In this document: in pieces, positions 4,859 to 32,042 of the stretch
Numbering within the stretch: position 1 is the stretch's first letter
How the letters are laid out: every line of letters starts with the position of its first letter
NCBI GenBank assembly: GCA_028285385.1
Contig: JANQPR010000211.1
Span: 1-38,744 of the forward strand
DNA from: Phycisphaera sp.
GTDB taxonomy: Bacteria; Planctomycetota; Phycisphaerae; Phycisphaerales; Phycisphaeraceae
Direction of reading: 5' to 3'
Length of the DNA stretch: 38,744 nucleotides
Program-made: the position numbers and the translations under genes
The notes under the pieces: model-generated
Database searches by the model: none
Seen by the model: the letters and a program-made list of their open reading frames with translations, nothing else
Told to the model about the DNA's origin: nothing

Positions 4859-6220
4859 ATGGCGGGTCCCCCCCCCCTCATGTTGAGCGTCAGCGGGATG
4901 CGGGGTTTGGTCGGCGAGTCGCTGACCCCGCCAGTCGTCGCGCGTTACGCGGCGTCGATCGGCAGTTGGCTGAAGCGGTCGCGCGACGCGGCACACCCGC
5001 GCGTGGTCGTCGGGCGTGACTCCCGGCCGTCGGGGCCGATGTACGAAGACGCCGCGGCGGCAGGGTTGATCGCGGTGGGCTGTGAGGTCGTGCGGGTTGG
5101 TGTCCTGAGCACGCCAGGCATCGCGGTGATGGTCGGCGAGCTCAGCGCCGACGGTGGCCTTGTGCTGACCGCGAGCCACAACCCGACGCCGTGGAACGGG
5201 GTGAAGCCGTTGCGATTCGACGGCGTCGCGCCCCCGGCGAGTGACGTCGAACGGCTGATCGCGGACTTTCACGACAACCGCTTCGAGTACGTGGGGGTTG
5301 AGCGACTCCAACTCAGCCGATCGAACGACGACGGCGTCGACGCCCATGTCCGCAAGGTGATAGATGCCGGCATCGATGTTGAGGCGGTTCGTGACGCCAA
5401 ACTGACCGCCGTGGTCGACAGTGTCTGTGGCGCCGGCGGTGCCGAGGCCGCGGCGTTGCTCGAGCATTTGGGCGTGACGAACGTGCACCTCGCGGCGGAA
5501 CCGACGGGCTTGTTCCCGCACCCGCCCGAGCCGACGCGCGAGAACCTGACTGGCTTGTGCGACGCCGTCCGGGAACACAAGGCCGATGTGGGTTTCGCTC
5601 AGGACCCGGACGCGGACCGGCTGGCGATCGTAGACGACCACGGCCGGTACATCGGCGAGGAGTTCACGCTCGTGTTGTGTGCGATGCACCTGATGAAGCC
5701 CGGGGACACCGTGGCGGCGAACCTGTCGACCAGCCGGATGATCGACGACTTGGCCGAGCGAGTCGGGGCCGCCGTGGTCCGATCGCCGGTGGGCGAGGCG
5801 AACGTCGCCGCGGCGATGCGCGAACACGGCGCCACGGTCGGCGGCGAGGGCAATGGGGGGATCATCTGGTCGCCGGTGAGCCAGGTGCGCGACTCTTTGG
5901 TCGGCATGGCGGTCACACTCGAGATGATTGCCAAACGACGACAACGGTTGAGCGAGTTGGTCGACGAATGCCCCCACTACACGATCCTTAAAGAAAAACT
6001 GGAGATCACGCCCGGGTCGTCCGGCCCCGTGCTCGACCGTGTACGCGACGCGTTTGCCGGCGAGGCGATCGACGAGCAGGACGGCATCCGTGCCGACATC
6101 GGCCGGACCTGGGTACACGTGCGTCCAAGCAACACCGAGCCGATCCTGCGGATCATCGCCGAGGCCGAGGCTGTTGCTCAGGCCGAGGCGTTGGTGTCGC
6201 GGGTCCGCGCGGTGTTGTGA
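4859..6220 (+). CDS. glmM: Phosphoglucosamine mutase / phosphohexomutase
   Basis: This alpha-D-phosphohexomutase of 453 residues would convert glucosamine-6-P to glucosamine-1-P for UDP-GlcNAc and peptidoglycan synthesis. Landmarks are GMRGLVGE near the N-terminus, the active serine in TASHNP (Ser106), the metal-binding DPDADRLAIVDD loop, the sugar-binding GEGNGG, and the phosphate-binding RPSNTEP near the C-terminus. A phosphomannomutase or phosphoglucomutase role cannot be excluded from motifs alone. The first ATG directly follows the HAD stop. A second ATG at 4880 (MLSVSGMRG) is also a credible start, and a run of ten C residues (4868-4877) lies between the two. Confidence 0.85.
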   Translation: MAGPPPLMLSVSGMRGLVGESLTPPVVARYAASIGSWLKRSRDAAHPRVVVGRDSRPSGPMYEDAAAAGLIAVGCEVVRVGVLSTPGIAVMVGELSADGGLVLTASHNPTPWNGVKPLRFDGVAPPASDVERLIADFHDNRFEYVGVERLQLSRSNDDGVDAHVRKVIDAGIDVEAVRDAKLTAVVDSVCGAGGAEAAALLEHLGVTNVHLAAEPTGLFPHPPEPTRENLTGLCDAVREHKADVGFAQDPDADRLAIVDDHGRYIGEEFTLVLCAMHLMKPGDTVAANLSTSRMIDDLAERVGAAVVRSPVGEANVAAAMREHGATVGGEGNGGIIWSPVSQVRDSLVGMAVTLEMIAKRRQRLSELVDECPHYTILKEKLEITPGSSGPVLDRVRDAFAGEAIDEQDGIRADIGRTWVHVRPSNTEPILRIIAEAEAVAQAEALVSRVRAVL

Positions 6221-6235
6221 CGATTCGCTCTGAAC

Positions 6236-6784
6236 TCAACCCGCCCCTCGGCCGACGATTTCAACCTCATCACTCATCCGGGCTCCGCCGACGGGAGTGA
6301 ACGCGACGCGCAGCGTGGTGGCTTGCTGTGCCGGGTTCATGTTGTCGAGCTTGAGGCGAAACAGGTACCCACGGGTGATCGGGTCGAAGTACGCGCGCTG
6401 GTCGGCCAGGCTGAGCAGCGGGATGTCCCAGGCGTAGAGGCGTTCGCCGAGTGCGCCGTCGCCTCGGCCCGAGGAGGCGAACAACTCGCACCGCACGTCG
6501 CCCGCTCCCTTAACCGAGTCTCCCATCGCGTCGAACAACTCGATCCGCGCCTCAAGCAGGAAGAGCTCGCCCTCGGCGACAAACTGCGTCGACGGGTAGA
6601 TCCGCATGGAGACCGGTCGAGGAACCCAAGCCTGCCCGTTCTCGAGCGACGCGTCGTCGACGGGCTGGACGCCTTTGACGCAGCCGCCCACCAGCATCGC
6701 GAACGCGATCAGCGCGAGCCCTGCCAACGCTCGCCTGGGTCGGCTCGGTGATGAACTTTCTTGCCGCGTTACCCCTGATTTCAT
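6236..6784 (-). CDS. Lipoprotein of unknown function, last gene of the phage-head-like operon
   Basis: The 182-residue product has a basic N-terminus, a hydrophobic helix (ALAGLALIAFAML) and a lipobox LVGGC with the acylated Cys near residue 35, so it should be membrane-anchored outside the cytoplasm. The mature part is rich in beta-type segments (VSMRIYPSTQFVAEGELFLL) with no family I recognise. Its ATG overlaps the stop of the upstream membrane/coiled-coil gene by four bases (ATGA), indicating translational coupling to the operon. Its size and beta-rich content do not suit a small outer spanin. It converges on glmM with a 15-base gap. Confidence 0.75.
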   Translation of the reverse strand: MKSGVTRQESSSPSRPRRALAGLALIAFAMLVGGCVKGVQPVDDASLENGQAWVPRPVSMRIYPSTQFVAEGELFLLEARIELFDAMGDSVKGAGDVRCELFASSGRGDGALGERLYAWDIPLLSLADQRAYFDPITRGYLFRLKLDNMNPAQQATTLRVAFTPVGGARMSDEVEIVGRGAG

Positions 6785-7131
6785 GGCTCGGACTCCGCAC
6801 GGTGCAAGATATCACCCGCGGGGTCGCTCTGCGTCGTCGGGCGCGGTGTGTCCACCGGGCGGTGCCCTTGCGCCGTGAGCATCTGTTCGATCAGCCTACG
6901 GAGGCCGCGTTGGGTCTCGTCGAATCGAATGACGGCTCGGGTATTCCGCTCGAGCAGGTCGGTCAGCACGCTGACCTCGGCCCGTTCAAACATCATGCGC
7001 TCGTGGGCCTCGGTGAGTTGACGCTCACGCTGGCGGGAGAACATGCGCTCCCACGTCCAAAGAACGCCCATCAGCCCGGCCACCCCGAAGTTCAGTGCGT
7101 GTTCGAAGAGCTGCTCAGTCACGATCCTCAT
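6781..7131 (-). CDS. Small membrane protein with coiled coil, holin-like (BhlA-type) candidate
   Basis: The ATG at 7131 gives 116 residues and starts four bases after the upstream stop; an earlier in-frame start at 7161 would overlap that gene. An N-terminal hydrophobic segment (HALNFGVAGLMGVLWTWERM, about residues 9-28) is followed by a charged region rich in Glu, Arg and Leu (residues 30-95) that should form a coiled coil, then a polar tail. This layout resembles BhlA-type phage holins and some inner spanins, but the match is structural only. Position after the capsid genes and coupling to a lipoprotein gene support a phage-derived envelope role. Confidence 0.6.
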   Translation of the reverse strand: MRIVTEQLFEHALNFGVAGLMGVLWTWERMFSRQRERQLTEAHERMMFERAEVSVLTDLLERNTRAVIRFDETQRGLRRLIEQMLTAQGHRPVDTPRPTTQSDPAGDILHRAESEP

Positions 7132-7135
7132 CTCC

Positions 7136-7774
7136 TCACGCCCGCGCGGTCGGGAGCACACTCAGGGCGCGTTCCTGGTCGACCTGGCCGTCGCCATCGA
7201 GGTCGAGCGCGACCTTAGCGTGGAAGAACACCTCGGCGAACCGGCCGCGGAAGAATGCAGCCCTTCGCGACCACGCCGCCTCTTGCTCTGGTGTCCCGCT
7301 CGCGGTGAGGTACAGTTGTTCGAGGGTCTTGAACACCTCGAGCCGTCGTACCACGGAAGCGGACACGATCCCGTCGATCAGGTCCTGAGCACCGTCGCGG
7401 TCGGGGTCGATGCCGAGGCGTTGCAGGAGATCGTGGTACGCGGTTCCGCGCGCGACGGCGAATGACTTTGCAATCACAGTCGTGGCGGCCGCGTCAGCAC
7501 CAGAGATTGCGCCGTCGCTCGTGTCGTTACGGATCAGCGAGGTCGTACAAGTCGTCGCCGAACTCACCGCCAGCACCTCCCGCGGTGTGTCGTCAACCAG
7601 GAGCACAGACCCGGCGGCAATATCGGCGTCGGCGAAGCTGCCTGCGGTAAGCGTCAGCGTGCCGGCCGTAAGCGTGGCATTGGTCACGTCAAGCGTTGTC
7701 AGCCCGGGCAACGGTAGTTCGGTAAGGAGGCCCGGGCAGGCGGCGAGCAGATCGCGATCAATAGAGAAACTCAT
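7136..7774 (-). CDS. Phage head-completion/connector-like protein
   Basis: The ATG at 7774 has a CGGAG ribosome site 8-9 bases upstream and gives 212 residues. The N-terminal half is Thr/Ala-rich and beta-like (DVTNATLTAGTLTLTAGSFA). The C-terminal half is helical (RLEVFKTLEQLYLTASGTPE, then a WSRRAAFFRGRFAEVF segment), resembling the helical adaptor proteins that bind under the portal. The extreme C-terminus has a DLDGDGQVD calcium-loop-like motif. It lies directly downstream of the major capsid gene, the usual place for head-tail connector genes. The family assignment is inferred from position and shape, not from a clear motif. Confidence 0.55.
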   Translation of the reverse strand: MSFSIDRDLLAACPGLLTELPLPGLTTLDVTNATLTAGTLTLTAGSFADADIAAGSVLLVDDTPREVLAVSSATTCTTSLIRNDTSDGAISGADAAATTVIAKSFAVARGTAYHDLLQRLGIDPDRDGAQDLIDGIVSASVVRRLEVFKTLEQLYLTASGTPEQEAAWSRRAAFFRGRFAEVFFHAKVALDLDGDGQVDQERALSVLPTARA

Positions 7775-7863
7775 TTCGCGCACTCCGTTGGTTTGGTCAT
7801 CCTGGAAATGGGCCGGCGGCGAGGAGCCGCCGACCCGGGCAGAGAAAGAGCCAAGCGGAAGGG

Positions 7864-9000
7864 TCAGGCGCTGGTGAGGTTGTTCAGCACGCCGTGCGCG
7901 TTCTCGTTGCGTAGCTCGAGCGTGTACTCGCCGACGACCTGGCCGGTGACGCGGTCGCCCGTCGCCGCGAGCGGCTGGTAGGCGAAGCTGCGCCCGTTGA
8001 GCGGAAGCACGTCGACGCGCGAGCTGTCGAGCAGGATCAGCGTGTCAGCGGGCACCGACCGGCAGAGCACGACCCGGCACACGCCGAAGTCCGACTCGTA
8101 GACGCTGACCAACTCGCGGTACCTCGTGTCACCGGCGTCGTACCCTCGGCTGCTGGCGATGAACTGGTTGATCGCCCGCTTCTGGGCGCCGTTGACGACG
8201 ATCGTGTCGACAGCGCCGCTAGAAGTTTCCCAGATGTCGCGCATCACGCCGTTGAGCATCGATTCGGTCAGTGCCGTGGTGCCGGCGTCGGCGACATTCG
8301 TCGTGATCGAGTTCAGGACGCCCTTCATCGTGCGGCGCGTGGTCGCGTTGCCCTGTGGGTCGGCCGTCGGGGCGACACCGTTGATCACGCAGTTCTCAAG
8401 GTCACGCAGCAGCTCGCGCAGGCGCTCTTGCTTCTGATAGTCGAGTTCGTCGGCCACCGCGTGCTGCGCGGCCGCCTGTTGCGAACCGGAGACTTCGAGG
8501 GTCGCCGAGAAGATCTGCGTGTAGTTCTGACGCCGGGCACGGTTGGTGAAGCGGGCGGCGTCCGCGTCTTGGCCCTCGAGCGCGGCGTTGCCCAGCGAGC
8601 GGATGGTCCCGCCGTCGGTGAGCCCGGCCGGCGTGGTCGAGCCGTAGCCGCGCACGACGGTAAGGTCGTTGCTGCTGACGCCGGTGACGAGCATAACCTC
8701 GCGGGCCGAGTTGATCTGCACCAAGTCGCCGGAGCGGAAGACGGACCCATCGGTCACGGTGAACGTGGTGGCCGAAGTCGAGCCGGCGTTGAGCGCGTCG
8801 TTCACGGTGGTGTGATTGGGCAGCAGCGTGTCTTCGAGCCATTCGTGGACGGTGCTGGTCGCGGTGCGCTGCGGGTCGCCGAGGTGATCGAGTAGCGCGG
8901 TTTCGTAGGGGCTGACGATGCCGACGATGTCGCCGACGTCTTCGACGAGTTCAGGCAGCGTCGCGCCTGCGGAGTAGGTGGCTTTCCCGGTGAAAGGCAT
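7864..9000 (-). CDS. Phage major capsid protein, SU10-type (DUF5309-like)
   Basis: This 378-residue protein starts at an ATG with a GGAGA five bases upstream. Its N-terminus (TYSAGATLPELVEDVGDIVG, then IVSPYETALLDHLGDP) and the internal HEWLEDTLLP and RRQNYTQIFSATLEVSGSQQ segments match the SU10 major capsid family with HK97-like fold. Further signs are YQKQERLRELLRDLENCVING, GVLNSITTNV and the C-terminal ELRNENAHGVLNNL. A short beta-rich insertion near residues 70-130 may be a surface domain. It is full length with no frame defects. Its neighbours are a scaffold-like gene upstream and a connector-like gene downstream, the normal order of phage head operons. Confidence 0.85.
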   Translation of the reverse strand: MPFTGKATYSAGATLPELVEDVGDIVGIVSPYETALLDHLGDPQRTATSTVHEWLEDTLLPNHTTVNDALNAGSTSATTFTVTDGSVFRSGDLVQINSAREVMLVTGVSSNDLTVVRGYGSTTPAGLTDGGTIRSLGNAALEGQDADAARFTNRARRQNYTQIFSATLEVSGSQQAAAQHAVADELDYQKQERLRELLRDLENCVINGVAPTADPQGNATTRRTMKGVLNSITTNVADAGTTALTESMLNGVMRDIWETSSGAVDTIVVNGAQKRAINQFIASSRGYDAGDTRYRELVSVYESDFGVCRVVLCRSVPADTLILLDSSRVDVLPLNGRSFAYQPLAATGDRVTGQVVGEYTLELRNENAHGVLNNLTSA

Positions 9001-9058
9001 GAGGTCTCCAAGTCAAAGTCTGAGAGTGAAAGAGCGAGTGGAACGCGAGCCCCGAGGC

Positions 9059-9604
9059 TCACGGGCGTGTGCGGCGCAGCCGCAGGTAGCGCAGGAGGTC
9101 GCGCCGGTCGCCGGTCGTGCTGGCTTGCATCGCGGCGTCGTGCAGCGGGTCATCGTCGTCGGGCTCGACGCCCATCGCCTGCGCCGCCGTCGACCGCCGA
9201 CGGAACAAGTGCGGCTTCTGCCGGCAGAGGTCAGTGACGGCGAGCGCCACATCGGGGTCGTCCATCTGGGCGACGGCGGCTTCGGTCAGCAGGCGCGCGG
9301 CCTCCAGATCGACCGCGTCGGCTTCGCAGAGCATTGCGTCGATCCGCTGCCGACGCTCGAGCGCTGCAATGGCCCGTTCGCTCTCGGCGAGCGCGCCGGT
9401 CAACTCATTGACGCGAGTCTGCAGTGTGTCGAGTTGCTTCTCTGCGGCTTGCGCCCGCTTGCGGTAACGGATCGATTCTGAGACCGGCACGAGTCTGTCG
9501 GCATCGGGTTCTGCGGTCTTGACGTTGAATACGGGCGGTGCGTGAGCTTCTGCTTCGATCTGCTGAGCGATGGTTGGTTCCGGTTTCGGGGTTTCGTCGG
9601 GCAA
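9059..9604 (-). CDS. Phage scaffold-like coiled-coil protein
   Basis: Translation begins at TTG (9604), with a strong GGGAGG about seven bases upstream. The 181-residue product is acidic at the N-terminus and has a Gln/Glu/Leu-rich heptad region (about residues 45-90, KRAQAAEKQLDTLQTRVNEL). The C-terminus is basic (LLRYLRLRRTRP). A coiled coil with a basic tail between portal and capsid genes is typical of phage scaffolding proteins. No protease domain is present, and there is no separate protease gene in the operon. Sequence similarity to a named scaffold family is not evident, so the call rests on composition and position. Confidence 0.65.
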   Translation of the reverse strand: MPDETPKPEPTIAQQIEAEAHAPPVFNVKTAEPDADRLVPVSESIRYRKRAQAAEKQLDTLQTRVNELTGALAESERAIAALERRQRIDAMLCEADAVDLEAARLLTEAAVAQMDDPDVALAVTDLCRQKPHLFRRRSTAAQAMGVEPDDDDPLHDAAMQASTTGDRRDLLRYLRLRRTRP

Positions 9605-9674
9605 GGCGTGCCTCCCAGGGGTTGCGGGTTCGTTCGATGGACAGCGTTGGGGTCAACTAGCGGTCGCGTCGGTG

Positions 9675-11159
9675 TCAGACCGCGTTATGTGCAGCGGCCT
9701 CTCCCGTATTCCCGTCAGCCGGCTTGGTGTGTGGTTCGTCGGCGAGATGCGGTGGGCAGTCGGCGTAGCCCAGCTCGGTGAGGACCTGCTCCTGCGGCAC
9801 GCCGAGGCGGACCTTGCGCTCTGCGTTGTCGAGCTGCATCGACCGGCTCTCTGGGAACGGGTCTGGCCAGTCGATACGGAACCGGCGGTCTTCGAGGCGA
9901 TTGGGCAGCAGGCCGTGCACGTCGGCGGCGTGCAGGATGAGTTGGCAGCAGCGTTCGATCCCCGCGCCGTAGGTGATCCGTTTCTTCTCGGTACGGGCGA
10001 GCAACCCCAGGAGCACGACGCGGACCGCGTTCTCGCTGGTGAGGTTGCCGACGCGTCCCCGTAGCACCCCCGCCGCGATCGGCGAGACGCCGGACGCCTT
10101 GTCGAGCGCCTCGCGGACCTGCTCGATGTGAGCGTCTTCGGTCGGCGTGTCGCTGTCGCCGCCGAACGACTCGATGCTCGCCTCGGGGTTGTCGGTGGCC
10201 CACATCTGCCCCGGGCCGACCGGCCGCTCGGTGAAACCCTCGAGCCCCTTGGCCAGGTACATCTTGAAGCAGGCGAACGTCACACGGTTCGCACGGTCGG
10301 AAAGCCGAGTGTTGAGTTCATCCTGTAGCGGGATCAACGGCTCGACATCGGACAAGCCGTGGTAAGCGAAGGGTTGCGGCAGGTTTTGGATGTGGACAAC
10401 CGGGACATGGCCCAGCGGGTTTGGCTCACGGCGACGCAGCCGGCGCTCAGCACCGGTGCCTTCGTCGCTGGCAAGCATCTCTCGGCGATCGGCGGTCCAG
10501 CACTCGAGACGTTCCTGAGTCGTCGGTCGAGCGGATCGCGCCGTGCGACCTGGTCGCGAGTCAGCGTCGGTTTCGAACGTCCGCTTGTGCGTGCGGATGA
10601 TGTACGCGTCGAGTTGGCGGTAGTCGCCGGCGTTGAGCACCGGGATCGCTCGTCGTGCTTCGATGAGTTCTAGCGAGAACCCCATCGCCGGGTCGGTGCG
10701 GTCGGGCTCGCAGCGGACGAGGATGTCTGCCGAGCCGTACACGGCCCCGAGCAAGGCGAGGTCCTGAAAGAAAGTCACCCCGCCAGCGGCGCGGAAGACC
10801 TCCGCGATCAGCGCGTCGATGCGCTCGGCTTGGGCCGGGTCATCGGCGAGGGACCGTACCTCGACCGGCCGGCCGAACATGAAATCGACCTGCGTATGCA
10901 TCCGCCAGGCGATGTCGTTCTCGATGACGATTTCGCGTCGGGGCTCGCCGTCGGGGCTCCGCCGAAGCCGATCGGGCAGGCCCTCCTCCTGCGGGAACAC
11001 CCCGTGGCCCTCGGCGGTGGGTCGGCACTCGTTGCGGTAGTACCGCCAGAGCTTCCGCAGCCGTGGAAGAGTCCGTTGCCGGTGCTCAAGCACGAGGGCG
11101 TCGAGGACGGCGTTCGGCAGCGACGGTCCATTTGAAGCGGAGCGTCCATGGTCGGGCAT
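9675..11159 (-). CDS. Phage portal protein, SPP1 gp6-like
   Basis: The ATG at 11159 is preceded by GGAGG about nine bases upstream and gives 494 residues, the family length. Recognisable stretches are RLRKLWRYYRNECRP near the N-terminus, IVIENDIAWRMHTQVDFMFG (the conserved portal core after a basic linker), a beta-rich wing region, and the stem/crown-type segment GLSDVEPLIPLQDELNTRLS followed by NRVTFACFKMYLAKG. The C-terminal region keeps LTSENAVRVVLLGLLARTEK. Portals form the dodecameric DNA gate of the capsid. No large or small terminase gene precedes it; a divergent sigma-54 activator lies there instead. The frame is intact. Confidence 0.82.
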   Translation of the reverse strand: MPDHGRSASNGPSLPNAVLDALVLEHRQRTLPRLRKLWRYYRNECRPTAEGHGVFPQEEGLPDRLRRSPDGEPRREIVIENDIAWRMHTQVDFMFGRPVEVRSLADDPAQAERIDALIAEVFRAAGGVTFFQDLALLGAVYGSADILVRCEPDRTDPAMGFSLELIEARRAIPVLNAGDYRQLDAYIIRTHKRTFETDADSRPGRTARSARPTTQERLECWTADRREMLASDEGTGAERRLRRREPNPLGHVPVVHIQNLPQPFAYHGLSDVEPLIPLQDELNTRLSDRANRVTFACFKMYLAKGLEGFTERPVGPGQMWATDNPEASIESFGGDSDTPTEDAHIEQVREALDKASGVSPIAAGVLRGRVGNLTSENAVRVVLLGLLARTEKKRITYGAGIERCCQLILHAADVHGLLPNRLEDRRFRIDWPDPFPESRSMQLDNAERKVRLGVPQEQVLTELGYADCPPHLADEPHTKPADGNTGEAAAHNAV

Positions 11160-11360
11160 CGGCTTTGGCCTCCAAAGGCGGGTACACCCTTGGGGCGAAC
11201 GCGAAGTTTCTGCGCAGGAACCCAACGACACGGCTGTCAATATTGTTTTAAGTTATTTTTTATCAATTATTTGATTCAAATTCGCAAGGTTACGATTGCC
11301 ACAGAAGGGCTGACAGAATCCCTTGCGGTGGCGTTGAATTGCCGGTCTAATGGGCAATCT
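11160..11360. promoter_or_regulatory. Divergent control region with a strongly AT-rich core
   Basis: This 201-base gap separates the leftward capsid operon from the rightward sigma-54 activator gene. Bases 11237-11283 are almost all A and T (TTATTTTTTATCAATT), in sharp contrast with the GC-rich surroundings. Several weak sigma-70-like -10 and -35 hexamers can be drawn in the AT core in both directions. I could not find a correctly spaced sigma-54 (-24/-12) element. Confidence 0.55.
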
Positions 11361-12968
11361 ATGGATCAAGTTGGCCAAGAAATAGTCATTATTGAAGAAA
11401 TCAGCCAGATTCTCAGCGAGACCCTGGAGCTAAGCGAGGTCTTCCAGCGAGCGATGGCGGTGCTCACAGCCCGGTTGGGCGTTCAGCGGGCGGCGTTGGT
11501 TTTATTGGATTCGGCGACGGACGAGCTGCGGACGGTCGCGTCGATCGGGCTTTCCGCCGTGGAGCAAGACCGTGGCCGGTACAGCCTCGGCGAGGGGGTG
11601 ACCGGGCGGGTCATGGCGACGGGCGAGCCGGCCGTGGTGGGCGACGTGTCCAAGCACCCCGATTTCCTCAACCGCACCCAGGCCCGCGCCATGGCCGAGC
11701 CCCAGGCCGACGGCGGTGAGACGCTCAGCTTTGTGTGCATGCCGGTCCGTGACGGCGACCAGGTCGCTGGCGCGATCAGCGTCGACAAGCCCTTTGTCTC
11801 AGATGCCCAACTCGCCTCTGACGCGCGGGTGCTCAAGATCGTCGCCGGACTCTTCGCGCAGACCGTCCGCATCCACCACCAGGTCCAACTTCAGAAAGAC
11901 ACGTGGCTCGAAGAGACCCGGCAGCTACGCGATAACCTCCGCGACACGTACCGCTTCGACAACATCATCGGGTCCAGCCCGGCGATGCTCGAGGTGCTTG
12001 GCACGATCGCTCAGGTCGCCAGCTCGCGTGCCACCGTGCTCCTGCTCGGCGAGACCGGCTGCGGCAAGGAACTCATCGCCAAAGCGATCCACTACAACTC
12101 CGGTCGGAAGGACAAGCCACTCATCCGCGTCAACTGCGGCGCACTCTCGCCCCAGCTGCTCGAGTCCGAGTTGTTCGGGCACGTCAAGGGCGCCTTCACC
12201 GGCGCCGTGCGCGACAAGGTCGGGCGCTTCGAGGCGGCCGACGGCGGGACGATCTTCCTCGACGAGGTCGGCACGCTCGACCCGCAACTTCAAGTCAAGC
12301 TGCTGCGCGTGTTGCAGGAGCGCGAGCTCGAACGTGTCGGCGACCACCACAGCGTCAAGGTCGATGTCCGCGTCATCGCCGCCACCAACCTCGAGCTCGA
12401 AGACGAGGTCCGCAAGGGCAACTTCCGCGAAGACCTGTACTACCGGCTTAACGTCGTGACGATCAACCTGCCGCCGCTGCGGACGCGGCGCGAGGACATC
12501 CCGCTGCTGATCGACCACTTCCTGGACCGGTACAACCGCGAGAACCAACGGAATCTCAGGACGATCAGCCGAGACACACTGAACACCCTGTTGCGCTACC
12601 CCTGGCCCGGCAACGTACGCGAGTTGGAGAACACGATCGAGCGGGCCGTGGTGCTCTCGACCGGTGAAGACTTCACCGACGACCTGCTGCCGCTGCAGAT
12701 CCGCATGTTTGCCAGCCAGGTGCGCGGCGACCGGGCCGACGAATCGATCGACGGGCAGTGCAGCAAGCTCGCGGCCTCGGCGATCCGGCAGTACCAGGTC
12801 CACGACGGCGAGGTCTACGACATGGTCATCCAACAGGTCGAACGCCACCTGCTCCGCGAAGCGCTCAAGCACAACGGCGGCGTCAAGGTGCGCACCGCCG
12901 ATTTCCTCGGCATCAACCGCAACACGCTGAACAAGAAGGTCAAAGACCTGGAGATCGTCGCGGACTAA
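11361..12968 (+). CDS. NifA-like sigma-54-dependent transcriptional activator (GAF-AAA+-Fis)
   Basis: The ATG at 11361 (MDQVGQEIVIIEEISQILSE) gives 535 residues; the longer open frame upstream runs through the AT-rich promoter region. A GAF sensor domain spans about residues 15-170, ending the QTVRIHHQVQ helix. The AAA+ domain (about 195-430) has Walker A GETGCGKE, the sigma-54 contact loop GAFTGA, Walker B GGTIFLDEV, and the arginine-finger region NFREDLYYRLNV. A Fis-type HTH ends the protein (LREALKHNGG, then the TADFLGINRNTLNKK recognition unit). The ligand of the GAF domain and the target genes are unknown. It is divergent from the capsid operon, so regulation of that operon is possible but unproven. 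Confidence 0.92.
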   Translation: MDQVGQEIVIIEEISQILSETLELSEVFQRAMAVLTARLGVQRAALVLLDSATDELRTVASIGLSAVEQDRGRYSLGEGVTGRVMATGEPAVVGDVSKHPDFLNRTQARAMAEPQADGGETLSFVCMPVRDGDQVAGAISVDKPFVSDAQLASDARVLKIVAGLFAQTVRIHHQVQLQKDTWLEETRQLRDNLRDTYRFDNIIGSSPAMLEVLGTIAQVASSRATVLLLGETGCGKELIAKAIHYNSGRKDKPLIRVNCGALSPQLLESELFGHVKGAFTGAVRDKVGRFEAADGGTIFLDEVGTLDPQLQVKLLRVLQERELERVGDHHSVKVDVRVIAATNLELEDEVRKGNFREDLYYRLNVVTINLPPLRTRREDIPLLIDHFLDRYNRENQRNLRTISRDTLNTLLRYPWPGNVRELENTIERAVVLSTGEDFTDDLLPLQIRMFASQVRGDRADESIDGQCSKLAASAIRQYQVHDGEVYDMVIQQVERHLLREALKHNGGVKVRTADFLGINRNTLNKKVKDLEIVAD

Positions 12969-24944: not shown

Positions 24945-27665
24945 TCAGGCCGAGCGACGGCGGAGCATGGCCAGGCCGCCGAGGCCAAGCAACGCCAGCG
25001 TCGCGGGTTCCGGGACGACCACGCCGCGGAAGTCCGGGGCGGCGGTGCTGCCCCAGTTCTGCAGGACGATGTCGAGGTCGGCCTGCTCGACAACGCCGTT
25101 GGCGCTGTAGTCGCCGCCGGAGTAGCCGGTGTTGGTCTGGCCCCAGTTCTGGAGCACGGCGTCGAGGTCGCCTTGCTCGATCTGGCCGTTGAAGTTCACG
25201 TCGCCGTAGATCCCGTCGAGGACGGTGACGGCGATTTCTTCGAGGTCGGCCCGGTTGATGACCAGGTCGCCGTTCATGTCCGCCGAGAGGTCGGCGAACA
25301 CGGCCTCGTCCAGGTTGCTCCACTCGACGCCCTCGCTGCCGTCGAGGTCCAGCCCGACGAACTGGGCGTAGACGTAGTCGAGGTCCTGCAGGTCGACGGT
25401 GCCGTCCTGGCCCTGCGGCGCCCAGCCCTTGGCTTCCTGGCCGCTGCCGGCCACGTCGGCGCGGCTGTCACCGGCGTCGTAGGTGCCGGTCGCCAGCGTG
25501 GTGCCGAACAGGTTACCGGTGGTGGACGCGTTGTCCACGTCGATGAAGTTCTGCTTGCGGTCAAGCGTGTCGCCGCTGCGGCCCTTGACGAACAGGCCGT
25601 CGGCCCCGTAGCGGACGTCGTTGAGGTCGAAGTTCCCGTCGCCGTTGAAGTCGCCGAGCAGCTCGAGCGCCGCGTTGGCGTCGCTGCCGGCCAGGTTGCT
25701 GCGGCTGGAGATGGTGTTGCCGGCCGCGTCCGTGGTGTCGGACGCGCCGATGGCGCCGCTGTTCTCGTACGCGTTCACCATGGCGGCGACGTCGGCGGCG
25801 GAGCGGGTGCCGTCGTTATTGAAGTCGCCGGCGATGGCGTTGCGGTCGGCGATGGCGTCGCCGACGAACATGCTCGCGCCCTCACCGATGGTGCCGCCGT
25901 TGTTGGCGACGTAGTCGGCGCTGCCGTTCTGGCCGTCGGTGTAGGTCAGCCCGTCGGTCAGGGCGGTGCGGTCGGAGGCCTTGCCGTAGCGGTTGAGTTG
26001 CGTGGCGTTCGGGCCATAGCTCGGCGAGATGTTCTCGGCGGGCAGCAGGCTAGGGTTGTTGAACAGCGTGTCGCGGAGCGTCTGGCTGAAGCCCGCGTCC
26101 TGAACGAAGATGTCGGTGTTCGTTACGTCCGGCAGAACCTCGACCCCCGGGGCGAGCGCAAAGGAGTTGGCCAGGAAGTCGCCCGGGGTGCCGTCCGCGT
26201 CGGCGTTGGCGACGGCGTTGCCCAGAGAAGTGATGATGTTCCGCATGTACAACGCGGCGTACGGGCTGAACATGGTGGGGTTGCCCGAGCCGTTGCCGAC
26301 GAACTCGACCTCGTTGGCGCCGAGCGGCGCGTTCTCGTCGAAGCGGGCCTCGCCGGTGGAGGTGTTGACGATGATACGGCCGGCCTGCGGGTCGCCCTCG
26401 GTGACGAAGGTCTGCGAGCCGCCGATCTGGAAGCCGGTGTTCGGGTCGCCGTTGAAGATGACGTTGTTGTCGGTCGTCTTGTTGAGGACGGGGTAGACGT
26501 AGCTGCTGCCGTCCCAGTTGGCGTCGGTGTCGTTGGCAACGGCGAGCAGGTGGTAGTCGCCGTCGACCGAGTCGTCGCCGGCGCGGCTGCTGGAGCCGAG
26601 GCCGTCCGCCAAGCCGGAGTAGCCCACGGCGAGGCGGTGGTTCTGGACGGTGCCCTCCATGCGGGACGAGCCGCCCTTGTTGGACGGGACGAAGTCCGGC
26701 CCGAGCCGGTCGAACTGGCTGTCGCCCGAGCCACCCTTGGCGCCGGCGTTGTCGCCGACGGCCCACGACGGGTCGACGCCGATGGAGTTGGCGAACCCGT
26801 TGCGGGTGCCCGAGCCGGAGTCGCGGGCGACGAACACGAGGTTCTCGCCGGTCTCGGTCCGGCCGGTGACGTAGCCGTGCTGCAGGGTGGTCTTGCGGAC
26901 TTCGCCCTCGCCGCCGGCGGCGGAACCGTTGGAGTCGACCTCGGCGCCGTAGTTGGCGAACGGAGCGATCGGGGTCCAGGCGATCTGCGTGTCGAACAGC
27001 GTCTGCCGGTCGGGGCTGCCTTGGTTGAGGTTTAGCGTCGTGCCGCCGCCGGTGGGCGTGAGCGACTTGAGCTGGTTGCTCTGCCCGCCGCCGGCGAGGG
27101 CGCCGTTGCCGGTCGCGACCGGGTTAGAGGTGATCTGGCTGTTGCCGTAGCCGGGTGTGGGGGCGCCGCCGGTGAAGGGCGAGTTGTCCCAGGCCGCGCC
27201 GGCGCGGGTGTCGGTGACAAACCAGGACGAGGGCACGTCGACCGAGGCGATGTCGAAGATCACGTCACCGGTGAACGCCGAGCTGGGGGTGACGGCGCCG
27301 GCGTTGCGCGTGGCGTAGTCGTTGGAGTCGTAGTTGCCCGAGGCCCAGGGGGCGCCGGGGCCGTTGTTTCCGCCGAAGTCGACGAGTTCCTGGAACCCGT
27401 TGCCCGAGCCGATGCCGCGGGCCTGGGTGTTGAAGAAGCCGAACAGCAGGTCGACGGTGGGGACGTCGAGGTCGGTGGTGATGCCGTCGCCATCGACGTC
27501 GATAGCGTCGGAGCCCTGTGAGTTGGCTTCGTAGAAGCCGCGGAACAGGGTCGCGCCGGTGGTGTTGACCTCATTGTCCTTGGCGAAGCCGGCCGGGGCG
27601 TACGCACCGGTGGCCGCCGCGAGCAACGCGGCCGTGCTGAAACACAGAGTCCGCTGGGCAGTCAT
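24945..27665 (-). CDS. Exosortase-anchored PstS-like substrate-binding protein with dockerin repeats
   Basis: The ATG at 27665 has GGAGCG upstream and gives 906 residues. After a signal peptide (cut near YAPAGFA) comes a region with the marks of phosphate-binding-type periplasmic proteins: TTGATLFRGFYEAN, RGIGSGNGFQELVDFG, IAWTPIAPFANYG and the anion-loop motif FVARDSGSGTRNGFA, then a GAIGY-like QNHRLAVGYSGLADG. From about residue 610 there are EF-hand/dockerin-like repeats (GDFNNDGTRSAADVAAMVNA, GDFNGDGNFDLNDVRYG, GDVNFNGQIEQGDLDAVLQN). The C-terminus is VPEPATLALLGLGGLAMLRR. The ligand need not be phosphate. A pseudopilin-like gene precedes it about 100 bases upstream in the same direction. 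Confidence 0.82.
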   Translation of the reverse strand: MTAQRTLCFSTAALLAAATGAYAPAGFAKDNEVNTTGATLFRGFYEANSQGSDAIDVDGDGITTDLDVPTVDLLFGFFNTQARGIGSGNGFQELVDFGGNNGPGAPWASGNYDSNDYATRNAGAVTPSSAFTGDVIFDIASVDVPSSWFVTDTRAGAAWDNSPFTGGAPTPGYGNSQITSNPVATGNGALAGGGQSNQLKSLTPTGGGTTLNLNQGSPDRQTLFDTQIAWTPIAPFANYGAEVDSNGSAAGGEGEVRKTTLQHGYVTGRTETGENLVFVARDSGSGTRNGFANSIGVDPSWAVGDNAGAKGGSGDSQFDRLGPDFVPSNKGGSSRMEGTVQNHRLAVGYSGLADGLGSSSRAGDDSVDGDYHLLAVANDTDANWDGSSYVYPVLNKTTDNNVIFNGDPNTGFQIGGSQTFVTEGDPQAGRIIVNTSTGEARFDENAPLGANEVEFVGNGSGNPTMFSPYAALYMRNIITSLGNAVANADADGTPGDFLANSFALAPGVEVLPDVTNTDIFVQDAGFSQTLRDTLFNNPSLLPAENISPSYGPNATQLNRYGKASDRTALTDGLTYTDGQNGSADYVANNGGTIGEGASMFVGDAIADRNAIAGDFNNDGTRSAADVAAMVNAYENSGAIGASDTTDAAGNTISSRSNLAGSDANAALELLGDFNGDGNFDLNDVRYGADGLFVKGRSGDTLDRKQNFIDVDNASTTGNLFGTTLATGTYDAGDSRADVAGSGQEAKGWAPQGQDGTVDLQDLDYVYAQFVGLDLDGSEGVEWSNLDEAVFADLSADMNGDLVINRADLEEIAVTVLDGIYGDVNFNGQIEQGDLDAVLQNWGQTNTGYSGGDYSANGVVEQADLDIVLQNWGSTAAPDFRGVVVPEPATLALLGLGGLAMLRRRSA

Positions 27666-27698
27666 CTTTATCGCTCCAAGAGTTGGGAACAGGCCGTG

Positions 27699-27721
27699 CC
27701 CGCCGGCGCCGCACCGGCGGG
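27699..27721. repeat. GC-rich hairpin between the pseudopilin-like and PstS-like genes
   Basis: CCCGCCGG (27699-27706) and CCGGCGGG (27714-27721) form a perfect 8-base-pair stem around a 7-base loop. A second hairpin (CCCGGC type) lies at about 27734-27751. No T-run follows leftward, so attenuation or transcript stabilisation is more likely than full termination. Confidence 0.5.
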
Positions 27722-27766
27722 AAGAGAACGCCGCCCCGGCCACACGCCGGGACGGCTACGTGTTGG

Positions 27767-29440: not shown

Positions 29441-31852
29441 TCAATGCTCGGTCGCAGACAACCCGAACCCGCCTAACCGCAGCTCGCCCCGTCCCGATGC
29501 GCCGTCCGGCCGCGACACCCGGACCAGCAGCCGGAGGCGGTCCGTCAGCGCCGGCCCGGAGACCGAGAGCCGTGCCGATGATTGCGCGGGTGTGCCGGGG
29601 TCGAGTTCGTACGTCTCGCTCGCCACCGTCAACCACGGCAGACCCGGTTCCAGCGGTGGGGATTCCAACCGGGCTTCGACTTCCAGCGGCGCCGAACCCT
29701 TGAGCGTCGCGTTCAGTCGGAACGCGTACCAACGGCCGGGTTCGACCCCCTCGGTGACATCGTGCCACGTGCCGGCGTCGAGTGGTGTTGCCTTGTCGAC
29801 CACCAGCCGCATGGCCGGCATTCCCGAGTCGTTCTTAGTGCCTCGAAGCGGCTGCCAGCCATCGCCCCAGTAGAACCAGTTCGGCTTGATCGTTGGTGGG
29901 GGCTCTTTCGTCGCAGGGCGATCAAGAAGGTTGGAAGGCGCGTCGGCAGAGCCGTTGGGCGGTTGAGCATCCTTCGGCGCCGCGGTGGACCAAGTCGGGG
30001 GCAAAAAGGCCGCCTCGACCAGCCGGTCTTCGTCGTGCGCCAGCAACGCAATGCCGGTCCGAACGTCACGATCTTTCGTGTGCTTCCATGGCATTGCGGC
30101 GACGCGCGTGTACTCCCTCTGGCTGTCGGCCACCCACGCGTGCACATCATCGCCTACCCGTTGCAGGCCCAACGCAACGGGGAATCCGGTGAACGCTAGG
30201 GTCCGCTCGGTCGTCTCGCCGCCCGGCGCTGTTCGTTGCGCGAGCACCACCTCGCCGCGTGGGAACACGTGGAGCAGCACGTGCGCCGCGTCGTGCTCAA
30301 GCGAGCTACGCAGCATCAACCCGGCTTTGGCGTAGCGGTCCCGCGCGGTGAACGACTCGATCCCTGTCCACACGCCGAAGTCGCCTTCAACGCTGCGCGA
30401 CACAAACCGGAACGCGTCCGACCGACCAAAGATGTCCCGGCCGCCGCCTTGCACGACCCAGCGACTGCCCTCGATCTGTTGCCCGCCGGGCGTTGCTCCA
30501 CCGACATTGTGCGCCAGCCACGGCGAGGGCAACGCGTCGTCGCCCGCCGTGACCGACGCCGCGCTCGGCAGCTCAAAAGCGAACGAACTTGCATCGGCGG
30601 TAAGCCTTTCCCGGAGGCGATTGTCCTCGTCCAGTTTCATCTGTCCGTAGTGCCGCAGCTTCGCCTCGATCTCGTCGTCGGTGTCGGCGAAGACATCGAT
30701 CGGCTCGACCGGCTCGGCGTTGGTCACCAGCGGCCAGTTGTCGTCCGGCAGCCCGCCCGAAGGGTGCACGAGCTTGTAGCACCACATCGTCGCCGACCAC
30801 CCCAAGTCGGCGTAGCGATCGAAGGACGCCCGCATCATGTCGGCCCCGCCCAGCCGCTCGAACACGACGTTGAACTCGCCGACCAGGAACGGCGCTTCGG
30901 CGCCTTTAAGGAACCGTTGCCGGCTCTCCGCAAACGGCCCGAGCAGGTTGAAGTGCGACGTCATCGCCGTCGCGTCGCCGAACAGGCCCGGGTAGTAGTG
31001 CTCCGTGTAGCCGACATTCGTCCAACCGCGGTCGCTCGGCCGGCCGTAGAACGTCATGCCCTGCAAAGTCCCCGGCAGATAGATCAGCGTGTCCTCGTCT
31101 TGCGCGCGGATCACGCGGACCAACCGGTTTGCCAGATCGAGCATGGGACCACGCAGGTCCTGCCTCAAATCGCCGTACGGCTCGTTCAACACGTCGTAGG
31201 CCGCGACGGCGGACTCGTTGGCGTAGCGCTCGGCGAGCGCGGCCCAGAGATCAAGCGTCCGCTGCTGATGGATTGGTGAAGTCCACAACTCGTTCTCCCC
31301 GACCCGGCCGGACGGCTGGTCGATGCTCTGCCCACCCGGCGCGCCGTGCAGATCAAGAATCACGTAAACCCCGGCGTCTCGGGCGAGCGCAATGGCATGG
31401 TCCAGCCAACGGAAGTCGAAGATCGTCTCGCGACTGCCCGCTACGCCGCCTCGCTTCTCGACCAGTGCGTAGTGGAACGGCAAGCGGACGGCATTGAAGC
31501 CGAAGGACTTGACCCGGTCGAAGTCCTCGCGCTGAATCCAGCTGGCGTAGTGCGTCTCCATCAACGCGTCGGCACGTTCGGGGCCGAACCGTTCCCGCAA
31601 GGTCTCGACGAACGTGTGGTGGTCCGGCACGGCGGCGGAGTCGAGGCCGAGCATCCATGACTCGAGCAGGAACCAGTTCCCCAGGTTGACACCGCGCAGC
31701 GTGACGACGTGCCCGTCGGGGTCGACGAGGTGTCGGCCGGCGACGGACAGCGATGGCGGGCCGGCCGCGCCGCGAGCGGTAGACGGCGTCGAGGACAAGA
31801 TCAGCGTCGCGGCGACCGAGGTCGCCAAGGCACAGGCGGGATGAAGTTTCAT
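29441..31852 (-). CDS. Secreted GH5 glycoside hydrolase, exo-beta-1,3-glucanase-like, with C-terminal lectin-like domain
   Basis: The ATG at 31852 gives 803 residues with a signal peptide (cut near STARGAA). Residues 35-430 are a GH5 barrel. LRGVNLGNWFLLESWM and FNAVRLPFHYAL resemble fungal-type exo-1,3-glucanases (GH5_9). The acid/base Glu224 lies in VLNEPYG and the nucleophile Glu326 in FLVGEFN. Residues about 460-640 look like a DUF1349-type concanavalin-like module (RDIFGRSDAFRFVSRSVEGD, then RYAKAGLMLRSSL). The C-terminus is another beta-sandwich. There is no PEP-CTERM, so the enzyme should be free or lipid-independent. A 15-base palindrome overlaps the ribosome-binding region, suggesting repression by the divergent LacI protein. 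Confidence 0.87.
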   Translation of the reverse strand: MKLHPACALATSVAATLILSSTPSTARGAAGPPSLSVAGRHLVDPDGHVVTLRGVNLGNWFLLESWMLGLDSAAVPDHHTFVETLRERFGPERADALMETHYASWIQREDFDRVKSFGFNAVRLPFHYALVEKRGGVAGSRETIFDFRWLDHAIALARDAGVYVILDLHGAPGGQSIDQPSGRVGENELWTSPIHQQRTLDLWAALAERYANESAVAAYDVLNEPYGDLRQDLRGPMLDLANRLVRVIRAQDEDTLIYLPGTLQGMTFYGRPSDRGWTNVGYTEHYYPGLFGDATAMTSHFNLLGPFAESRQRFLKGAEAPFLVGEFNVVFERLGGADMMRASFDRYADLGWSATMWCYKLVHPSGGLPDDNWPLVTNAEPVEPIDVFADTDDEIEAKLRHYGQMKLDEDNRLRERLTADASSFAFELPSAASVTAGDDALPSPWLAHNVGGATPGGQQIEGSRWVVQGGGRDIFGRSDAFRFVSRSVEGDFGVWTGIESFTARDRYAKAGLMLRSSLEHDAAHVLLHVFPRGEVVLAQRTAPGGETTERTLAFTGFPVALGLQRVGDDVHAWVADSQREYTRVAAMPWKHTKDRDVRTGIALLAHDEDRLVEAAFLPPTWSTAAPKDAQPPNGSADAPSNLLDRPATKEPPPTIKPNWFYWGDGWQPLRGTKNDSGMPAMRLVVDKATPLDAGTWHDVTEGVEPGRWYAFRLNATLKGSAPLEVEARLESPPLEPGLPWLTVASETYELDPGTPAQSSARLSVSGPALTDRLRLLVRVSRPDGASGRGELRLGGFGLSATEH

Positions 31853-31855
31853 GAT

Positions 31856-31870
31856 TTGTTTCTGAAACAA
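31856..31870. promoter_or_regulatory. Candidate LacI-family operator O1 at the GH5 start
   Basis: TTGTTTCTGAAACAA is a perfect 7+1+7 palindrome ending three bases upstream of the GH5 ATG. It replaces the usual ribosome-binding sequence, so a bound repressor could block both transcription elongation and initiation of translation. Size and odd symmetry fit LacI/GalR operators. Confidence 0.6.
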
Positions 31871-32014
31871 GAACGTGGCGGGGAGTTGGGCCGAACGGCG
31901 AGCCGCTGTGAGTCTGGGCAAGTGCTCGTGGAGTATTCTACTGGGTTGGGTGCGTAATCCGAAGATATCTGTGCTGGGAGATTGAGGATTGGGCCAGAAA
32001 ATCTCCCGTGAAGG

Positions 32015-32042
32015 TTGACATGGCCGAGAATCCACGTATTCT
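32015..32042 (+). promoter_or_regulatory. Candidate sigma-70 promoter of the LacI-family gene
   Basis: A perfect TTGACA (32015-32020) is followed after 16 bases by TATTCT (32037-32042). The candidate operator O2 overlaps the -10 end, which suggests autoregulation. Confidence 0.55.

Follow-up and report, generated by a model that had tools for sequence, protein, structure and literature searches.

The DNA analysed here, a 38,744-nucleotide contig of the Phycisphaera sp. assembly GCA_028285385.1 (JANQPR010000211.1, the window), carries at positions 6,236 to 11,159 a block of six phage-head and associated genes. The block is probably the head module of a phage-derived system that has been domesticated, dispersed and passed on vertically, and whose packaging module (the terminase TerL, a TerS-like gene, a ParB-like gene and a CI/LexA-type repressor) lies elsewhere in the genome; together the two modules would likely form a gene transfer agent (GTA)-like particle filled with the cell's own DNA. 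Both modules are retained together in related genomes across the class, which makes it likely that the cell produces phage-like particles whose cargo would be its own DNA. Gene transfer agents are recognised in few lineages. If correct, this reading would add a major GTA lineage in the Phycisphaerae that is class-wide, independently derived and built from two modules, and would explain 'orphan' phage-head blocks that are annotated as remnants. It would also give a search route for others, in which a conserved capsid is paired with an unlinked terminase by co-occurrence and not by neighbourhood.

Conservation and inheritance of the head block

All six minus-strand frames of the block are open and lie in head-gene order (Table 1). 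The portal and capsid are firmly identified on their Pfam matches, in agreement with the preliminary description of this DNA, which had reported an intact phage-head block. Mean column identity is 73% in the capsid alignment (A1) and 50% in the portal alignment (A2), each with 20 members. Among solved capsids, the capsid profile matched 9ny2_A best (4.5e-34) and the SU10 capsid 7z45_A with 2.1e-10; the portal had no match among PDB sequences and three matches only among viral contigs. The scaffold-like gene retains its place between portal and capsid in relatives, where the recurrent order is portal, scaffold, capsid, 215-amino acid (aa) protein, an interval of 0 to 8 kb, 126-aa protein and lipoprotein.

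The 215-aa protein was modelled with a pLDDT of 94.3 and its weak structural neighbours are chiefly connectors and podovirus tail adaptors; Foldseek returned nothing at E <= 0.001, a null that says nothing on other folds. The 126-aa protein had no family match, and residues G26, A28, G29, W35, E38, R39, R45, N73 and T74 are invariant in its alignment (A10, 28 members). The predicted lipoprotein likewise lacked a family match (PHROG and Pfam scans were among those made); its Cys35, downstream of a hydrophobic stretch, is invariant in 26 members (A9).

Two samples were used, a nearer one of 101 genomes (the own genome and related taxa) and a class sample of 298. Capsid relatives are present in 58 of the 101, the strong copies being 56-75% identical, and the capsid gene occurs in 132 of the 298. 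A scan across named genomes yielded 294 capsid relatives; the best 80, which were kept, are titled Phycisphaerae, Phycisphaerales, Phycisphaeraceae or Planctomycetota/planctomycetes, plus one Planctomycetaceae and one Vicinamibacteraceae. The last of these records (WYBR01000003.1, L126) carries the block with a capsid identity of 61%; the Vicinamibacteraceae belong to the Acidobacteria, and the record is probably a mislabelled or mixed bin.

The ratio dN/dS is 0.041-0.276 for the capsid (10/10 pairs) and 0.075-0.299 for the portal (9/10 pairs; one pair was saturated). In the capsid tree there are 6 family changes, against a minimum of 5 and a shuffled mean of 18.3; f2 and f5 form clades, f1 and f6 do not, and inheritance of the capsid appears largely vertical. 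The block had been proposed to be under selection and not in decay, which is supported by the capsid's presence in over half of the nearer sample and by dN/dS values below 0.3. The mark of a simple remnant had been given as a block lost from close relatives and, in addition, damaged in frame in other strains; mostly the opposite was found, a same-genus genome keeping the block, with the reservation that the capsid went unmatched in some genomes and that damage was seen in a few copies (see below). A prophage remnant of ancient origin, in slow decay and with genes lingering without function, is disfavoured and improbable. It would account for a block with no integrase or replication gene, for patchy presence and for some damaged copies, but not for capsid and portal dN/dS of 0.04-0.30 in the pairs with a value, for the family-level vertical tree or for the class-wide co-retention of two unlinked modules.

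Of the 40 order loci (L031-L070), 15 have the sigma-54 activator beside the block and 12 have GlmM there, although many of these loci end short of the positions concerned; both associations were seen in family f1, where GlmM lies downstream of the capsid and is convergent. By contrast, the capsid gene in 12 loci (L108, L114, L128, L147, L155, L159, L162, L169-L171, L179 and L180) is preceded, 4.1-8.5 kb upstream and on the same strand, by a GlmM relative.

An unlinked packaging module

The block had been described as having no packaging genes. At the level of the genome this is wrong: a cognate TerL, a TerS-like gene and a phage-type repressor constitute a second conserved module. The Pfam terminase models PF03237, PF04466, PF03354 and PF17289, which matched 19, 3, 8 and 16 of the 101 genomes, respectively, had no match in the own genome and alone would support the absence of a terminase; these families are not associated with the block (26/58 block-bearing genomes compared with 13/43 others). 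A profile (A3) built from the TerLs of the six viruses nearest the capsid (capsids 38-44% identical) reversed this result, finding a TerL in the own genome at G000:C155:46697-47824 on the minus strand (E 5.2e-34; PHROG terminase match 2.8e-12), on a different contig from the head module. All 18 rows of its alignment (A11) share the Walker A lysine, the DE box and the acidic residues of the nuclease.

Profile A3 matched 67 of the 101 genomes, namely 54 of the 58 with the block and 13 of the 43 others, six of these 13 being C-terminal-only matches. Class-wide, with the order TerLs added to the profile, 180 of the 298 genomes had a TerL match; at any E this was the case in 125/132 capsid genomes compared with 55/166 others, and for strong TerL (E < 1e-120, a cut-off picked after the list was seen) in 119/132 compared with 14/166.

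Upstream of TerL, the 20 loci that were read carry a GNAT-like gene (20), an ABC-type ATPase (20), a sigma-like gene (18), a divergent repressor (17), a ParB-like gene (15) and a TerS-like gene (14). In the own genome the module, which is bordered by polyphosphate kinase and an FG-GAP protein, includes a CI/LexA-type repressor with HTH_3 and Peptidase_S24 (1.7e-15), an ABC-type ATPase (ABC_tran 3.8e-9) and a weak ParB_N match (0.0025). A 9-bp inverted repeat lies next to the repressor. The TerS-like gene is identified by position, with no PHROG match and a non-significant HTH match (0.092); according to the available part of PMC11841831, TerS of known GTAs is without a detectable DNA-binding domain. 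Unlike in an active prophage, the structural genes are not accompanied by integrase or replication genes, none being found among the six block genes or the scanned second-module genes.

Both modules are on one contig in 31 of the 54 genomes that have both, 10-649 kb apart (median 37.5 kb; 27 within 82 kb, the others at 129, 252, 275 and 649 kb), distances that fragmentary assemblies skew to short values. In six single-contig genomes the modules are 33-129 kb apart, with chance probabilities of 0.017-0.071 each that are not independent. Host-like genes lie between them in the two intervals that were read (iPGM, ferredoxin and glycosyltransferase in G059; EF-P, class-V aminotransferase and antiporter subunits in G058). 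Over 15-17 genomes, pairwise distances correlate between capsid and TerL (r 0.55) and between portal and TerL (0.73), with 0/2000 permutations as high. The modules are joined in a few genomes: TerL, portal, scaffold-like gene and capsid form a single cluster in G108 and G117 (family f14), running on in G108 to hub, 126-aa relative and lipoprotein, and portal, capsid, 126-aa relative, a spanin-like gene and TerL are packed together in G174 (f11).

The protein families suggest how such a system might work, from repressor release to headful packaging. The S24-type repressor would be relieved, perhaps by DNA damage; TerL would dock on the portal of an SU10-type prohead built on a scaffold and would pump chromosomal DNA into the head to its full capacity; closing of the portal would fall to the 215-aa protein; and the small membrane protein and lipoprotein may serve release or anchoring.

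Relation to phages, gene transfer agents and other capsids

Among viral capsids that belong to a recognisable phage head operon, those of the six viruses used for A3 are the nearest, and the gene order there is TerL-portal-scaffold-capsid; in the capsid tree, viral rows lie outside on a long branch. SU10-type caudoviruses (for example Sporosarcina phage Lietuvens and IMG/VR contigs L187 and L189) are alike in their TerL-portal-(minor)-scaffold-capsid order, with capsids 38-39% identical, and unlike the block in having tail genes (tape measure and sheath in Lietuvens) or full phage contigs; between the block portal and its best annotated phage counterpart, identity reaches only about 25%. It is very unlikely that the modules belong to a family of living temperate phages or satellites, occupying two integration sites and entering genomes again and again. 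The phage-type repressor and the existence of related free viruses would suit this reading, but the distant viral capsids and their long branch would not, nor would the sigma-54 activator and GlmM as fixed neighbours within f1 and the host genes between the modules.

Other relatives of the head genes were observed in viral and prophage settings. Viral contigs L181 (6917-8183) and L182 (5970-7124) carry, among non-head genes, a full capsid gene 55-59% identical to that of the block, and in L181 the end of the scaffold-like gene is also kept ahead of it; these genes look as if captured from a host, with chimeric assembly as an alternative. In IMGVR_UViG_3300031673_016560 (L250, L251) a portal relative is split, with residues 19-138 near one end and 119-465 about 24 kb further, as if interrupted by a provirus. 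Extra divergent capsid copies (about 25-32% identity) occur next to ordinary prophage genes in G054, G062, G070 and G072. Block-bearing genomes also contain ordinary prophage-like loci (L091, L092, L094 and L095), each having a portal of its own and an SU10-like capsid that is divergent, and TerL is also present in the first three (by eye and Pfam terminase scan).

The available part of PMC9662315 characterises GTAs by caudoviricete-derived particle proteins, an endogenized and often multi-locus genome, mostly vertical inheritance with co-diversification with hosts, encapsidation of mostly random host DNA, an own genome that is not fully packageable and delivery of DNA to other cells. Judged by its genes, the present system shares the first three features: portal, capsid and TerL, together with the hub fold of long-form relatives, are of caudoviricete type; its loci are on separate contigs here and 10-649 kb apart in the 31 relatives mentioned above; and the capsid tree follows family labels (f1 not being one clade) while capsid, portal and TerL distances correlate. 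With two unlinked loci, incomplete packaging of its own genome is likely. Among the four options offered in the preliminary description (a domesticated particle, a GTA with scattered modules, a satellite or a partial prophage), the scattered GTA fits best, and a distribution that is class-wide and largely vertical speaks against the partial prophage.

The RcGTA type (Rhodogtaviriformidae), as far as PMC9662315 was available, is alike in its caudovirus-derived, vertically inherited, chromosomal genes at several loci. The Phycisphaerae system differs from it in phylum, in its SU10-type capsid, SPP1-type portal and S24/CI-type repressor, in having TerL and not only accessory genes apart from the head genes, and in the lack of a recognised tail hub in the own genome. 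BhGTA (VSH-1) of Brachyspira, by description only, is also similar, its genome being likely dispersed with a putative TerL away from the validated genes (same source, in part). The same part gives alphaproteobacterial and spirochaete groups in the formal GTA classification, and other named GTAs are BaGTA, Dd1 and VTA (PMC11841831, in part). No description of the present system was found in the open-access papers searched (PMC); the available parts of PMC8346489 and PMC8597652 contain no such system, and the GTA remark in that of PMC13055281 concerns Rhodobacteraceae.

Long-form relatives have an added tail module with a baseplate hub (hub fold), within which a TIGR03790-family protein (1.4e-20) was also observed (L032:14859-17036). 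No hub was found in 34 of the 58 block genomes, the own genome included, and TerL is kept in 34/34; in 18 of the 34, again including the own genome, both the hub and m122 (small tail-ring-like) are absent. Any delivery in the own genome would thus use parts not recognised here. It is possible, if rather unlikely, that the hub-less genomes encode a tail-less DNA-packaging capsid of the cell that works without tail delivery, for instance in storing DNA, in releasing it to competent neighbours or in interfering with phages. These counts favour it, as does a capsid dN/dS of 0.04-0.10 in hub-less f5 pairs. On the other side, hub or tail parts may escape the profiles through divergence or be encoded at a third locus, we know of no function for a tail-less packaged head, and PADLOC gave no defence-system match at E <= 0.001 for the portal, capsid, adaptor-like protein, membrane protein or lipoprotein. 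TerL, the GNAT-like protein and the recombinase were also without a PADLOC match (the scaffold was left out); for the ABC-type ATPase and the repressor the matches were to generic models, taken as family resemblance and not as defence. The hub-less members raise the question of whether a packaged head can be of use when no tail is recognised.

Encapsulin nanocompartments have an HK97-fold shell and enzyme cargo and are without packaging machinery. A compartment of this kind derived from a phage capsid, holding cargo enzymes and not DNA, would agree with the host's retention of the capsid and with the absence of a prohead protease gene from the block. It is highly improbable, however, given that a portal and a scaffold-like gene are kept along with the capsid, that TerL co-occurs and that the capsid's Pfam match is SU10_MCP and not an encapsulin family.

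Several points weigh against the GTA-like system proposed here. No capsid match was found in 43 of the 101 genomes, TerL was missing at A3 from four of the 58 block genomes (G005, G029, G049 and G075), and 13 of the 132 class capsid genomes are without strong TerL, so that the system is dispensable. Damaged copies occur (a capsid stop in G062, a capsid truncation and a TerL stop in G027, and element insertions), and 26 of the 58 block genomes also have the Pfam TerL families by which ordinary prophages are marked. The dN/dS values are read without a housekeeping-gene reference, and host phylogeny enters the capsid-tree test as family labels only. The promoter regions of the two modules share no operator or DNA motif above the cross-genome background in 12 genomes (12.4 matches of 16 within genomes, 12.5 across genomes). 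A sigma-54 promoter scan upstream of the portal, in the window and a set of f1 loci, gave a single weak site (L050) and none in the window, and action of the flanking activator on the block is thus not supported. Neither hub nor m122 relative was found in the own genome.

Elements in the capsid gene and features of the window

Related elements interrupt the capsid gene near codon 57 in five genomes: G008 (family f1; L048), G022 (f1; L052/L053), G063 (f6; L049), G077 (f3; L047) and G101 (f7; L300). The large serine recombinases of the inserted elements are 57-95% identical to two reference copies. Element size is about 11.5 kb in G008 and G077 and 7 kb in G101; the G022 element has its ends on two contigs, and in G063 the far part of the capsid is inverted relative to the near part. 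In four of the five there are a helicase-like gene and a fusion of prohead protease and capsid (NCBIfam NF045541 1.7e-84 in G077). Insertion at one capsid codon suggests that parasites exploit the system. A doubtful extension of this idea is that the class-wide gene-transfer system of the Phycisphaerae, with tail-less forms keeping a full DNA-packing head, now hosts its own parasite. The elements would switch the host capsid off, bring (in four of the five) their own protease-capsid fusion and could use the host portal and terminase to spread, as a satellite helped by a gene-transfer system of the chromosome and not by a phage.

Table 1 Head-block genes and flanking genes in the window.
Feature	Position	Strand	Basis
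GlmM-type phosphohexomutase gene (flank, convergent)	4859..6220	+	four Pfam PGM_PMM domains
Predicted lipoprotein, 182 aa	6236..6784	-	conserved alignment
Small protein, 126 aa, hydrophobic N-terminal segment and long charged helix	6781..7161	-	membrane role predicted by eye
Adaptor/connector-like gene, 215 aa (predicted function)	7136..7783	-	model and weak structural neighbours
Major capsid protein gene, SU10 type, 378 aa	7864..9000	-	Pfam SU10_MCP 3.4e-87
Scaffold-like gene, 181 aa	9059..9604	-	weak: PHROG scaffold 0.0046, Pfam Phage_scaffold 0.0082; placed between portal and capsid
Portal protein gene, 494 aa	9675..11159	-	Pfam SPP1_portal 1.2e-19; PHROG portal 1e-22
GAF / sigma-54 activator / Fis regulator gene (flank, divergent)	11148..12968	+	Pfam Sigma54_activat 8.9e-72

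The true start of the sigma-54 activator gene may lie further in than 11148. Elsewhere in the window are genes for a 932-aa protein with a PEP-CTERM motif (24945-27743) and a GH5-type cellulase-family protein (29441-32035).

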